From Gemmatimonadaceae bacterium (GTDB lineage Bacteria > Gemmatimonadota > Gemmatimonadetes > Gemmatimonadales > Gemmatimonadaceae), in NCBI GenBank assembly GCA_016742275.1, contig JACVCD010000015.1, forward strand, positions 1 to 64,000: a DNA stretch of 64,000 nucleotides, given 5' to 3'. The notes under the pieces are model-generated. The model saw only the letters and a list, made by a program, of their open reading frames with translations. It had not been told where the DNA came from and did not search any database. A program made the translations under genes and the position numbers. This document shows, piece by piece, positions 48,391-56,893 of the stretch. How positions within the stretch are numbered: position 1 is the stretch's first letter; every line of letters begins with the position of its first letter.

Positions 48391-48478
48391 CACTTTCACT
48401 CGAAACTGAGCACCCATCACTCGGAACTGTTTTTTGATGAACAACAGTTCTGAGTGATCAGTGTTCAGTCTAGAGTGG
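48391..48478. repeat. Convergent intergenic palindrome (CAGT-rich family)
   Basis: CACTCGGAACTGTT pairs with AACAGTTCTGAGTG, with outer partial arms (AAACTGAGCAC with GTGTTCAGT). Right arm CAGTTCTGAGTGATCAGTG resembles those at 52759 and 60246. It lies between htpX and the convergent ferredoxin gene and probably terminates both. Confidence 0.7.
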
Positions 48479-48823
48479 GAGTGGGTTCGGGTTGCCAGTT
48501 GGGTGATTGGACTGGCGCTCCAACCGATGAAACACCCACTCCTCAATCACCCGACCATCACGCAAATGCTCTACCACAATGCGCTCGAGCAGCGCGGGCG
48601 TGACCGAATGATACCAAATGCCTTCCGGGTACACGACCACAATCGGACCTTTCATGCACACGCCGAGGCACGGCGCTTCGCTGCGTTTGACACGAGTTGG
48701 ACCGAACAGCAGACCATGCTGCTGCAGGAGTGACGCAAGCCGCGAATAGATGGCGCGCCCCGAACGATTGGGTGAACAAAACCCGCCCGTGCAGACCAGC
48801 ACGTGGCGGGTATAGGGCTCCAT
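48470..48823 (-). CDS. Thioredoxin-like [2Fe-2S] ferredoxin
   Basis: 117 residues from ATG 48823. It has YTRHVLVCTGGFCSPNRSG at the N-terminus and SEAPCLGVCMKGPIVVVYPE in the middle, giving the four cysteines that bind a [2Fe-2S] cluster in the thioredoxin-like ferredoxin fold. A frequent annotation is (2Fe-2S) ferredoxin domain-containing protein; an electron-transfer role is assumed, partner unknown. The longer in-frame start at 48991 lies inside the next gene and is not used. Confidence 0.88.
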   Translation of the reverse strand: MEPYTRHVLVCTGGFCSPNRSGRAIYSRLASLLQQHGLLFGPTRVKRSEAPCLGVCMKGPIVVVYPEGIWYHSVTPALLERIVVEHLRDGRVIEEWVFHRLERQSNHPTGNPNPLPL

Positions 48824-48875
48824 CTCGGGTCCGCCTTGTACTGGCAGGCTCACACCGACTGCCTCACGGACAACG

Positions 48876-49169
48876 TTACTCGCGCGGACGCGTGGACTTG
48901 CTGGCAAGCCGTTCGCGCACCAGCAGAAACATGCCGCGCATCGCGAGGCCGGTGCCAAACAGCGACACGGCAATTCCGCGCACACCCTCACTCTGCAGAT
49001 AGTGCGCAGCGGCCGCAGTCATCAGAAATCCGCTGCCAGCCATGACCAGCCCTTTGAGCTGTGTAGCATTCCAATGCCCACTACGCGAATGCAGCGCGGC
49101 CGCGCCCAACATCCAGGCGCCCCCCGTTCCCACAATGGCCGTAGCCACAGTATCGCGATCAAACTCCAT
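48876..49169 (-). CDS. Small membrane protein of unknown function
   Basis: 97 residues with CGGAG 7 bases before ATG 49169. It has two to three hydrophobic segments (TAIVGTGGAWMLGAAALHS, LKGLVMAGSGFLMTAAAAHY, and GIAVSLFGTGLAMRGMFLLV) and a basic C-terminal tail. No family recognised. It lies 52 bases upstream of the ferredoxin gene on the same strand and may share its transcript. Confidence 0.7.
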   Translation of the reverse strand: MEFDRDTVATAIVGTGGAWMLGAAALHSRSGHWNATQLKGLVMAGSGFLMTAAAAHYLQSEGVRGIAVSLFGTGLAMRGMFLLVRERLASKSTRPRE

Positions 49170-49259: not shown

Positions 49260-51224
49260 TCAACGACCAAATGTCGTACGTTCGTCCCACAATCCGGGAT
49301 TACTCACCGACAAACGCTCGATCGCCCAGACTTTCCCAAACTGTCGCGCCATCGACAGCGCGGTTTCTCCGCGCGCTGACACCGCATCGCGTGGTGCACC
49401 GGCGGCGAGCAGAGCATCCAGAATAACCGGAGTACCGCGGTCCGGCGCACCGGCCGCGTAGTGCAACGCAGTGCGTCCCTGATCATCGACCGCGCGCACA
49501 TTGGCACCCCGCGCAATGAGCAATCGTGCAATGCCAGACACACCGTCCTCCGAAGCAATCATGAGCGGTGTCATCTGCAGACTGTCAGCGGGACGCGGCA
49601 AATCATCCACCGCTGCACCGCGCCGCAGCAACCAGGATGCAGCGGCAGAGTCGCCGTTCCATGTCGCCAGCATCAACGGAGACTCCACCCTGGGGTCGAC
49701 CGCGCTGATTCGCGCGCCGCGATCGAGCAGTTGCTGTGCGAGCAGTGTATCACCACGCAACAAGGCCTGCGTGAACGGCGTCTGTCGCCCCGCATTGGAC
49801 ACGGTAAGCGGACGATCATGCCACGCGCCGCGCGCCAGCAGCAATGCAGCCACACCGTTGCGACCAGCATCGGCACGCATGTATGCCGTGGCCAACAGGA
49901 GCGCCGTGTGGCCCTGCCGTGCGGCGGCGGTGATATTGGCGCCGGCATCGAGCAATGCGTGTGTCTTGACCGAATCGTGCGCCGCCGCCATGAGCGGAGT
50001 CACACCACCGGGTGACGCCGCATTTACATCCGCGCCATTCGCGATCATCACACGCAATTCAGCGAGCGTGCCGAACATGGCTGTCCGATGCAGCGGGGTG
50101 AGTCCATCGGGCATGGTGTCATTCGCCACCGCAAATGTGCGCGCCGGCCTGCCCATCAGCGCCCGTGTTGGCGCGCCGTCGTCGGGTGAGACGAGAGCCA
50201 TGAGCGCCCACACCGTGCCTGCGTATGAAATGAACTGATCCTTGCCGTGCGGGAATCCGCTTTCGAAGTACGGCAATCCTGCCTGCAGTGTGCGCGTGGT
50301 GGGCACATGCCAACTGCCGTCCGATTTCACCGTACTCAGGAGATACGCGCGTCCCTTCTGAATACGCGCATCTGAGGCGGGCATGCCGGCAACCTGTTGC
50401 AGCACGGTGAGCGCCTGCCCCGTGGCGTAGGCATCACTCGCGCGCGTTGACACCTGTGCCCAGCCGCCATCAGCGCGCTGCTCGCGAAGCAGTGCACGTA
50501 CATGCGGCAGCAATGCCTGCTTTGGCGTACCCGCCCAGCCAAGACCAAGCAATTGCATGACACGTTCTTCGGTGGACACTGGTCGGACAGCCGTCAGGTA
50601 TTTCTGCGCCCGCGCAATACGTGTGGCAAACTCCCGTTCGCGACCGGAGAGCGGCGTTAGCCGCAGTGCACGCAACGACAACGCAGTCGCTGTCACCTCG
50701 GAATCTTCGAGCGGTGGTCGCCGCGAATAGGACACCCATTTGCCACTCGTGTGCTGCTCACCTGCCAACATGAATGCGATGGCCCGTGTCATCGCATTGT
50801 TGGGATGCCCAGCCGCTACCGAACCAAGCACACGATAGCTCTGCCCGATCGCTTGATTGATGCTTGGTTCGTGAATGATGAAACGTTCCTGCCAATTGGC
50901 CGTGGCGCGCAACGACCGTTCAGCCTGACCACGCAATCGTGCGGTATCTACCACATGATGGCGCTCCTGCAGCATGGCCATGGCAAGAGTGCCAATGCCT
51001 TGATGATGGCACGAACCGCAGCTGCGCTTTTCGAACCAGGTGTCGGCAGACTGCTGCAGCAGCGGGATGGCGCGCGCCACAACCCGATTGATCGAGTCGG
51101 TCGACGACACCAGAACCTCGTGCGATCGGTATTCCACGATCGCCGGCGACTTGGCCGAATGCCCGGAACTTGAGAGAATGGCCAAGGTCAACTGCCAGGC
51201 AGCCCACGCACACCCTGCAAACAC
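49260..51224 (-). CDS. Exported protein with CXXCH motif, cyclase-like repeats and ankyrin repeats
   Basis: 654 residues (GTG start at 51224; N-terminus hydrophobic, [19 protein letters not shown]). Residues 67-75 read KRSCGSCHH (Cys69, Cys72, His73), a single c-type heme motif. Residues about 80-345 hold repeated [32 protein letters not shown] and [16 protein letters not shown] segments like the prenyltransferase/squalene-cyclase alpha-barrel repeats. From about 385 there are six to seven ankyrin repeats ([20 protein letters not shown], then [32 protein letters not shown]). No enzyme active-site Asp-rich motif (DxDD) was seen, so it is unlikely to be a true cyclase. Function unknown; a periplasmic sensor or scaffold is possible. 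Confidence 0.8.
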
Positions 51225-51348
51225 GGCGACTCCGGAAAAGGCGATTCCGGGAGCCTACGGTGACTTTCACCCTTCCGCTACCTTTCGAAGCACGGCCATC
51301 GGCGGTCGCTGGTCGATCAGTCCTTTCGTCTTCGTGAGTCGGAACATC

Positions 51349-54287: not shown

Positions 54288-55127
54288 CTACCGCGAAGCG
54301 TTCATCCGCTTTTCGAGCCAGGCGATGGCCAGCGTGTCGCGCGTCTGGGCCAGCGCCATGATCGCGGTTCTCCGCAACTCCCGGTCCGGCAACGACTCCG
54401 CCCACTTTTGCAGCGCCGGGATAGCCTCTTCCTTCGGTCGACGCGACATGGCCATGATGGCTGCCCGCCGGATTTCACGATCGCCGGACTCATACGCGAT
54501 CGAGTCCAGTGTAGCCGTCACCCGATCGCCTACGACCTCGCCAAGCCAATGCACCGCGCTGTTACGGACATCGCGCGAACGCGAATCGTCCTTCACCATG
54601 CGAAGCAACGTTGGTCCCGGTGCTGTTGAATCCACCAGGATGGCCGCGTTCATCGCCGTCCGCGCCACCTTGTCCGTGGCCTGCTCCGCCTGACGCAGCA
54701 GCCAGGTGCCGCCCTCGATCGCGCCAATGGCGCCAAAGTCCTTGACGGTATCGTTGGCAACCCACTTGCCGCCGACATAGTGCCGAAGTGACTTGGTGTC
54801 CCCGTCTTCGCGGACCACTACAATGCGAACCGGTCCCCGGTCGCAGGTTGTTTCAACTTCTCTCGTACTGATCGAGTTCCAGTTCCCGTAGAACGAACCC
54901 GATCTGCCATCACGAGAACGATACCAACTCGACCCTGTACCGCATACGAATGGCGATGCCGCCAGCGTGAACCGAATCGTGCCGTTTCGTACTGCCTGGA
55001 TGCGTGCGTCGAGCGAACCTTGCGCACCCATGGGCTGTGTGGCTGCCTGCGTGGTGCTCGCGCCGATCACCGCCGCGAGCGCCCACATCGCATGAAGCGA
55101 TTTGGTGAGCGCTAGCGGTCTGGTCAT
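54288..55127 (-). CDS. Exported HEAT-repeat protein (short)
   Basis: 279 residues with signal peptide (LTKSLHAMWALAAVIGASTT). A beta-rich N-terminal part (IRFTLAASPFVCGTGSSWYR) is followed by three or four HEAT-like repeats (SRDVRNSAVHWLGEVVGDRV, GDREIRRAAIMAMSRRPKEE, DRELRRTAIMALAQTRDTLA). The start overlaps the stop of the long HEAT gene (ATGA). HEAT repeats are protein-binding scaffolds; partner unknown. It is the last gene of the sigma-led operon. Confidence 0.82.
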   Translation of the reverse strand: MTRPLALTKSLHAMWALAAVIGASTTQAATQPMGAQGSLDARIQAVRNGTIRFTLAASPFVCGTGSSWYRSRDGRSGSFYGNWNSISTREVETTCDRGPVRIVVVREDGDTKSLRHYVGGKWVANDTVKDFGAIGAIEGGTWLLRQAEQATDKVARTAMNAAILVDSTAPGPTLLRMVKDDSRSRDVRNSAVHWLGEVVGDRVTATLDSIAYESGDREIRRAAIMAMSRRPKEEAIPALQKWAESLPDRELRRTAIMALAQTRDTLAIAWLEKRMNASR

Positions 55128-56893
55128 CGGTCGATGATCTCCTGCAGCAGTTGCACGGCACGCGGATCCTTCGTGCGGGTGAGATAGCTCACCGCGTTCT
55201 TGCGCAGTTCGAGATTCTTCTCGTTGCGCGCCACGTCCAGCAGCTTGTCGATCCCGGCGCCATTGCGGGAAGATGCCAGCGTGCTCAGCGCCGTGCGACG
55301 AAGATCCATATCCACGGCCTTGTCATAGATCTGGCCAAGCGCCTTGACTGCATCCGACTGTTCCGGCGTCACGGTGGTCGTCACGTTCTGTCCGCTCGTC
55401 GTCCTGACGTTCACATTCACGGCGGTGGACGGGATCATCGAGACAGCGGAGCGACGCACGTCCATGGACTCGCGTTCGTCGAGCGCAACGGTGACCAGGA
55501 AGTTGCGGGCTTCTTCGTTACGACGGCTGGTCACGGTGCTGAGAAGACGCATGCGATACGGCGTCGACTCGGCGCGATTGAACGCGTCCTTGAGGAAAGG
55601 CAGCCCTTCTTCCTTGCCGGCCTCAGTACGCACGTAGTAGTTCATGGCCTCGGCGCGCACTTCGTCGGTATTGCGTGCATCGAGTGACAATTCACGCAGC
55701 GTGCTCACGGCCTTGGGCGACTTGGAGCGCGACAGCGCCTGCACCGCACGCTTACGCATTTCGATATCGTCACCGGACTTGGCCATACCGATCAGCATGT
55801 CCGCCGCTTCGTCGGTCGGAATATTGGCGATCCAGAATACCGCCTGCTCACGCACATCCTTGTCCGGGTCACTCTTGACCACGTTCATGAGAATGCCCGC
55901 AGCTTCCGGCTGCTTGCGCGATGCGACCAACCACACCGCCGTACGACGCAACTGCTGCGTGCAGGGCTCACGACGCGCCAGCACCTTCTTGAGAATGGGC
56001 ATGGCCTGCTCGGGATCCATCTGCATCACGGCATTCAGCGCATCCACGCGCTCGTCTTCCTTGCCTTCCGGACATCCCGTGCCAGTCGCGCGATCCCGGA
56101 GATTAGTCGCCACTCGTTGATCGTTTCGACCAAGGATGCCATCGATGCGCGTACCAAGAGCCGTTGCATCACCACGGGTAGCCGCACGCGGATACTCACG
56201 CTGCTGCAGGGCCAACGCTTCACGTGCGGCGCGCAGGTTGGCATCACCGCCCAGGCGCTGCAGGGCAAACGCTTCCCAGTACGGCGCATCCGGCGTGTAG
56301 GTGCTGCGCGGATACTTCTCGCGAATGGTGCGGAACAGATCGGCCGCCTTGCGATAAGCTTCACTCGACAGCGCCTTGCGGGCATCGCGATACAGCGAAT
56401 CGGCTGGATCATCCTGTGCCCAGGGCTGCGGCACTTCGGTGCGATAGCCGCGCGAACCGGACGATGAGGTGCTGAAGCTGTAGGCAAAATCGTTGGCCAA
56501 GTTCATGGCCACCGGTGCGATGGCTTCCGACACGTTCACCGCGACATCGTGTGCCATCTGTGCGAAAGGCGCAGCCGCCGCAGCAGCACGTGCGCCGTCA
56601 GCAGCCATGCGGGCCGATGCACGCGCCATCTCGGCGATGGCCGTACGATCGATGCTCAGTTCGGCCGTGGCGCGCGCCAACTCATGCGCCGCGCGATCCA
56701 TTTCGTATTCGAAGCCGTTCCACGACTTGGCGGTCGGCGTCGGACGCGGTGCTGGTGCTACGACCGGCGCCTTGGCGGGAGCCGGCGGACGGGGCGGCGT
56801 ACGAGTCTCACCAGCCTGTGCAGCGAGTGGTGCAACAATGGTGAACGCGGCCGCACCGGCCAACGTCGTCACCAGATTCTTCACGTTGAACAT
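55124..56893 (-). CDS. Exported HEAT-repeat protein (long)
   Basis: 589 residues with signal peptide (KNLVTTLAGAAAFTIVAPLA). A Pro-rich linker and an Ala-rich helical region (to about 140) precede a TPR-like stretch (YRDARKALSSEAYRKAADLF) and then about eight HEAT repeats (PDKDVREQAVFWIANIPTDE, GDDIEMRKRAVQALSRSKSP, VDMDLRRTALSTLASSRNGA, EKNLELRKNAVSYLTRTKDP). The start shares one base with the upstream stop (TGATG). No enzymatic motif. Probably a periplasmic scaffold controlled by the operon's own ECF sigma factor. Confidence 0.85.
   Translation of the reverse strand: MFNVKNLVTTLAGAAAFTIVAPLAAQAGETRTPPRPPAPAKAPVVAPAPRPTPTAKSWNGFEYEMDRAAHELARATAELSIDRTAIAEMARASARMAADGARAAAAAAPFAQMAHDVAVNVSEAIAPVAMNLANDFAYSFSTSSSGSRGYRTEVPQPWAQDDPADSLYRDARKALSSEAYRKAADLFRTIREKYPRSTYTPDAPYWEAFALQRLGGDANLRAAREALALQQREYPRAATRGDATALGTRIDGILGRNDQRVATNLRDRATGTGCPEGKEDERVDALNAVMQMDPEQAMPILKKVLARREPCTQQLRRTAVWLVASRKQPEAAGILMNVVKSDPDKDVREQAVFWIANIPTDEAADMLIGMAKSGDDIEMRKRAVQALSRSKSPKAVSTLRELSLDARNTDEVRAEAMNYYVRTEAGKEEGLPFLKDAFNRAESTPYRMRLLSTVTSRRNEEARNFLVTVALDERESMDVRRSAVSMIPSTAVNVNVRTTSGQNVTTTVTPEQSDAVKALGQIYDKAVDMDLRRTALSTLASSRNGAGIDKLLDVARNEKNLELRKNAVSYLTRTKDPRAVQLLQEIIDR

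Follow-up and report, generated by a model that had tools for sequence, protein, structure and literature searches.

Class II terpene cyclases are defined by a DxDD acid motif, and squalene-hopene cyclase (SHC) has two toroids. The planctomycete cytochrome C domain (PSCyt1, PF07635) is also found fused to other domains in Verrucomicrobia, where its function is reported as unknown (PMC5615132). Ankyrin proteins of other bacteria are reported in a review to interact with and promote catalase, with orientation or heme binding as their proposed roles (PMC10294975).

The window, the whole 64,000-nucleotide stretch of DNA analyzed here, encodes a protein of 654 amino acids that combines, in one chain, CGSCHH at residues 69-74, repeats of the QW type and ankyrin repeats (Table 1). 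This combination of a heme motif, a cyclase-like barrel and ankyrin repeats had been pointed out in the preliminary description of the locus, and Pfam, AlphaFold2 and profile searches show that it is real and recurs in relatives. Toroids with this heme motif, often joined to ankyrin repeats, are a real and conserved family that has probably gone undescribed so far, with members in Gemmatimonadota, Acidobacteriota, Armatimonadota and Planctomycetota.

Gene and Domain Architecture

Relatives in A4 are collinear with the open reading frame over its full length. A Pfam scan of the protein returns Ank families above the cut-off, with E-values down to 9e-26, and weak matches to SQHop_cyclase N/C (E 7e-4 and 9e-4) that are below the Pfam gathering scores (19.3 bits vs 26.2 for PF13249 and 18.7 vs 26.1 for PF13243); some relatives score above gathering, for example L124:6632-7645, a standalone planctomycete form of 338 aa, with 37 bits to PF13243. 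PSCyt1 (PF07635) was not detected in the window protein, and no Pfam family matches the CxxCH segment of its toroid.

Table 1. Features of the heme-toroid gene and its predicted product, in window coordinates.
Feature	Residues	Position	Strand	Basis or remark
Shine-Dalgarno-like GGAG		51230..51233	-	5 nt upstream of GTG
Whole CDS		49260..51224	-	GTG start, 654 aa
N-terminal hydrophobic helix, atypical signal peptide	1-24	51153..51224	-	model helix 2-20
Predicted (alpha/alpha)6 toroid, squalene-hopene-cyclase-like	42-345	50190..51101	-	AlphaFold2, Foldseek, VIA
CxxCH motif for heme c attachment, CGSCH	69-73	51006..51020	-	turn joining toroid helices 1 and 2
QW-type turn, QRADGGW	249-255	50460..50480	-	G253 72/72, D252 70/72, W255 71/72; aligns with SHC QW repeats
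Long repeat-6 loop	306-333	50226..50309	-	H326, Q330, S333; low pLDDT at 309-328
Eight ankyrin repeats	372-640	49305..50111	-	Pfam, AlphaFold2 helix pairs, VIA DARPin Z 23.5

Several other genes of the window were recorded in passing. Directly downstream, 48876-49169 (minus strand) encodes a small protein (97 aa), predicted to be of membrane type and with no Pfam match, an open reading frame that is also found downstream in the same-genus relative L006. The product of 48470-48991 (minus strand), near the heme-toroid gene, shows a weak similarity to [2Fe-2S] ferredoxins of the thioredoxin type (23.2 bits vs a cut-off of 24.8), and 54288-56893 (minus strand) encodes two neighboring proteins that look exported and seem by eye to contain HEAT-like repeats.

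Predicted Structure of the Toroid

The AlphaFold2 model of the whole protein, built with four relatives (pLDDT 78.3, pTM 0.77), shows a helical barrel and, C-terminal to it, an ankyrin array of eight helix pairs (residues 377-639), which raises the six to seven ankyrin repeats counted at first to about eight. As ankyrin structures filled the fold search with the full-length model, the toroid was also folded alone (residues 38-352, with five relatives), giving a model of pLDDT 84.1 and pTM 0.87. By our own assignment, the twelve main helices of this model divide into six outer and six inner ones, and there is one further, short helix. The model's best Foldseek matches are 8pak, a squalene-hopene cyclase with a single toroid (E 8.8e-7), and drimenyl diphosphate synthase. 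A VIA comparison with 2sqc gives Z 23.9, with 261 residues across model residues 5-314 aligned at an rmsd of 3.1.

In the numbering of the toroid model, CxxCH occupies residues 32-36, between a helix at 5-30 and a helix at 36-50. The first of these helices is needed for the barrel, and the heme motif therefore lies in the turn of the first hairpin, within the toroid. The preliminary description had treated the motif as a separate module ahead of a barrel at 80-345, and had counted a heme plus two scaffold domains; structure prediction and VIA instead place the motif inside a barrel that begins at residue 42, leaving the ankyrin repeats as the only scaffold. With the heme motif in its first hairpin, the barrel is better read as a heme-carrying, and probably substrate-binding, domain.

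The QW turns at 249-255 and 299-305 and the long loop at 306-333 are outer-to-inner turns of the toroid, like the CxxCH turn. From the topology of the model, such turns would share one rim, and the heme should accordingly sit on the conserved rim. The repeat-6 loop, with position 326, would adjoin repeat 1 in a closed barrel; AlphaFold2 confidence in this loop is low.

Distribution and Conservation of the CxxCH Motif

Genome counts are lower bounds throughout, as scoring covered the first few candidates of each genome: 7 in the Gemmatimonadota, 5 in the Acidobacteriota and Planctomycetota and 11 in the Armatimonadota with the module profile, and 10 with the barrel-only profile described below. 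With the module profile, relatives at E <= 1e-3 were found in at least 17 of 298 Gemmatimonadota genomes (4 strong, 13 weak), and at E <= 1e-15 in at least 21 of 396 genomes of the Acidobacteriota sample, at least 21 of 201 of the Armatimonadota sample and at least 37 of 392 of the Planctomycetota sample. The patchiness of the family, with 4 strong members in 298 Gemmatimonadota genomes, suggests a niche function. No relatives were found on viral contigs, or on plasmids by tblastn.

After deduplication the set comprises 102 open reading frames, of which 72 score at least 150 bits (the strong relatives), 22 score 60-150 and 8 score lower. CxxCH is aligned at the same place in 70 of the 72 strong, 21 of the 22 mid-scoring and one of the 8 lowest-scoring relatives, and the misses in the strong group (L051, L052) and the mid group (L062) are broken or partial open reading frames. 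The heme assignment had been made to depend on conservation of the motif in homologues, and C69, C72 and H73 prove to be identical in all 70 aligned strong relatives that cover the site, so that CxxCH is more than chance.

As the module profile includes the heme region, it was checked for bias with a barrel-only profile from which the heme columns had been removed. This profile finds loci in at least 18 of 267 Acidobacteriota and at least 33 of 269 Gemmatimonadota genomes, and CxxCH is in place in 41 of these 51 loci (40 by script, together with L144, which lies just outside the interval the script inspected). The ten loci lacking the motif consist of seven cyclase-like proteins, two fragments (L163 and L164) and one real exception. 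In six of the cyclase-like proteins (L184, L187, L188, L191, L192 and L194) the SQHop N and C domains are both complete, with E-values of 1e-49 to 1e-137, and the seventh (L190) has a partial SQHop match at 1e-13. The search thus recovers mostly loci with CxxCH, and cyclases without it, indicating that the motif marks the heme-toroid branch and not the cyclases. The real exception, L182:745-2043, is a shorter toroid close to the family; its sample neighbor L181, of the same genus code (g78), has CxxCH, making loss in L182 possible.

In addition to the residues of the QW-type turn in Table 1, near-invariant positions include R169 (70/71), D264 (70/72), Y266 (69/72), T268 (72/72), W305 (71/71), Q330 (70/71) and S333 (71/71). 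Outside CxxCH, the relatives have no Met, His or Lys in common at any position. Position 326, with 58 His and 9 Tyr among 71 relatives, is the sole other conserved candidate for a His, Met or Lys ligand of the heme, and as only those 58 have His a fixed distal ligand is not assured.

A group of remoter toroids, about 380-580 aa long and carrying CVSCH or CVTCH, was also observed in other Gemmatimonadota families (L017, L020, L025, L026 and L169-L178). These proteins have no ankyrin repeats where tested and may be a sister family.

Export and Heme Maturation

By a crude rule, signal-like N-termini are found in 56 of 67 family members, as compared with 64 of 186 neighboring control open reading frames. 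The 67 include the window protein and exclude five truncated or broken sequences (L044, L051, L052, L072 and L090); an earlier and laxer rule had passed 67 of 72, some of them doubtfully (for example L079, L051 and L094), and the stricter rule with its control was used instead. These counts make a cytoplasmic location unlikely for the family, in agreement with the earlier suggestion of an exported protein, however the window protein itself does not pass the rule, its N-terminus being hydrophobic with no basic residues. Export is the weakest part of the case for the window protein itself.

CcmF and CcmC were found in the window protein's own genome. The cytochrome c assembly family is present in all 19 family-bearing genomes examined, as compared with 9 of 14 in a control set that does not provide a base rate for these phyla. 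Covalent heme attachment and, at the level of the family, export are well-supported predictions.

Domain Partners and Gene Neighborhoods

Ankyrin repeats are N-terminal to the module in 26 of the 72 strong relatives, C-terminal, as in the window protein, in 14, and absent from 32; none of the 22 weaker relatives has them. A second CxxCH outside the module occurs in 11 of the 72, and all 11 are above the Pfam cut-off for PSCyt1, which is located at the N-terminus in eight and at the C-terminus in three.

The N-side and C-side ankyrin orders are grouped by the tree of relatives. A first AU test rejected a single ankyrin clade (p 1e-6) using a row set that included L072, a sequence whose ankyrin side is off the contig end. 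When L072 was removed together with L044 and the two long branches L012 and L091, the p values were 0.0585 with every ankyrin-bearing row considered and 0.030 with the N-side group alone. The value of 1e-6 is at least partly due to the truncated row, and separate gains of the ankyrin repeats are therefore not claimed; the difference in order stands.

Gene neighborhoods were clustered for 20 regions of 12-14 kb together with the window, L008, L009, L011 and L012. No pathway is shared across them, and a conserved cluster was found in one Planctomycetota clade only (six genomes; L124-L128 and L130), comprising genes for an LPG synthase, an isoamylase-type protein, a FAD_binding_3 monooxygenase, a standalone heme-toroid, DUF6159, GDPD and beta-lactamase/BTRD1. 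GDPD is present in five of the six, and the cluster, whose genes share no theme, is not repeated elsewhere. The window and G010 share neighbors on the HtpX side and the aminopeptidase side that are unremarkable.

Uncharacterized C-terminal tails were also seen. Two Armatimonadota proteins, L069:172-1500 and L088:514-1491, have tails of 443 and 326 aa, respectively, with no Pfam match. These had appeared glycosidase-like by eye, an assignment that was dropped when Pfam returned nothing and the PDB yielded a single match for L069, at E 0.097, and none for L088. A distant heme-toroid relative, L085:283-2529, has a C-terminal tail of 387 aa.

Proposed Function and Alternative Explanations

On balance, we think it reasonably likely that the window protein is a periplasmic mono-heme c-type protein that carries its heme on the first outer-to-inner turn of a terpene-cyclase-type toroid. 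The heme would then be located at the mouth of the barrel, among R169, D252-G-G-W255, D264, Y266, W305, H326 or Tyr, Q330 and S333, with H326 (His or Tyr, from the repeat-6 loop) as a candidate distal ligand. Electrons could pass between the heme and a small ligand in the barrel, or the ligand could alter the heme. The ankyrin array may hold a partner protein, most simply a redox partner or a protein that carries the ligand, and in relatives the fused PSCyt1 domain may hold the partner or relay electrons.

Extending this proposal to the family is more tentative. The members in the four phyla might form a class of exported heme enzymes whose toroid rim has a c-type heme in place of a QW turn, with the His or Tyr of the repeat-6 loop as distal ligand and a small hydrophobic or sugar-like ligand acted on in the barrel, the toroid having been repeatedly coupled to ankyrin repeats for docking and to PSCyt1 for electron exit.

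The main rival to a redox function is that the heme-toroid is a sensor or adaptor, as had been proposed at first, in which the heme senses a gas, peroxide or the redox state and the ankyrin array signals to a partner with no turnover of substrate. The ankyrin repeats in 40 of the 72 relatives would suit such a role, as would the review passage in which ankyrin proteins elsewhere interact with and promote catalase (PMC10294975), and a His or Tyr at position 326 leaves an exchangeable distal site possible. However, 32 of the 72 relatives have no ankyrin repeats, a Pfam scan of 10 relatives recognized no signaling domain, the clustered neighborhoods include no conserved kinase or regulator gene, and the near-invariant polar residues on the barrel rim resemble a binding or active site. 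A role as a redox enzyme or in electron transfer also fits the PSCyt1-fused relatives better, and we regard a sensor or adaptor as possible, yet unlikely.

It is a good deal less probable that the protein carries no heme and that CxxCHH instead forms a disulfide or a metal site, or is the relic of a thioester turn of the complement type (TED), whose toroids share the fold. TED-bearing chains of C4 do appear among the matches in the fold and profile searches, and CHHQ puts a Gln three residues after the second Cys in many relatives, however that Gln varies within the family, in contrast to the invariant C, C and H. CxEQ occurs anywhere in the module in only one of 72 relatives (L077) and is absent from the window protein; the true cytochrome domains of 11 relatives and the presence of cytochrome c assembly in every genome tested likewise argue for heme. 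An isoprenoid or hopanoid cyclase with an incidental cytochrome tail would account for the match of fold and QW repeats to SHC, however it is largely refuted and highly improbable, as DxDD is found in none of the 72 modules of strong relatives, the single toroid of about 300 aa stands against the two of SHC, CxxCH is inside the toroid and not in a tail, and true SHC-type proteins of the same phylum have no CxxCH.

If heme binding is confirmed, the protein would present an (alpha/alpha)6 toroid with a covalent heme at its rim, and we know of no described cytochrome with its heme site at a toroid rim. Confirmation would also provide a first biochemical handle on exported PSCyt1-bearing heme proteins, a group reported to be of unknown function, and would mean that ankyrin repeats can serve outside the cytoplasm as part of the same polypeptide as a heme.

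Comparison with Known Systems

A search of one open-access library found no description of an architecture joining a heme-toroid to ankyrin repeats. A phmmer match between the N-terminal region and a cytochrome c555 construct was rejected as too weak, its E-value of 7e-8 applying to the whole sequence with no stretch significant alone.

As reported in one review, the periplasmic ankyrin proteins found beside catalase, AnkB and Cj1386, the latter linked to hemin trafficking, resemble the window protein in having non-cytoplasmic ankyrin repeats that work with a heme protein (PMC10294975). In those systems the heme enzyme is a separate protein, whereas in the window protein the motif is in the same chain and of the c type. 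PSCyt1 proteins share an exported c-type heme motif, a large multidomain organization and the same phyla; PSCyt1 is fused to the heme-toroid module in 11 of 72 relatives, however the window toroid's own CxxCH segment has no match in Pfam. The complement-type thioester toroids are alike in fold and differ in that the heme-toroid has CxxCH and no CxEQ thioester. The likeness to squalene-hopene cyclase and the class II terpene cyclases (PF13243/PF13249) lies in the (alpha/alpha)6 toroid and its QW turns, with a profile match to SHC at E 1e-30 and a fold Z of 23.9; as compared with SHC, the heme-toroid is a single toroid with CxxCH in its first hairpin and no DxDD, belonging to a family that is predicted to be exported.
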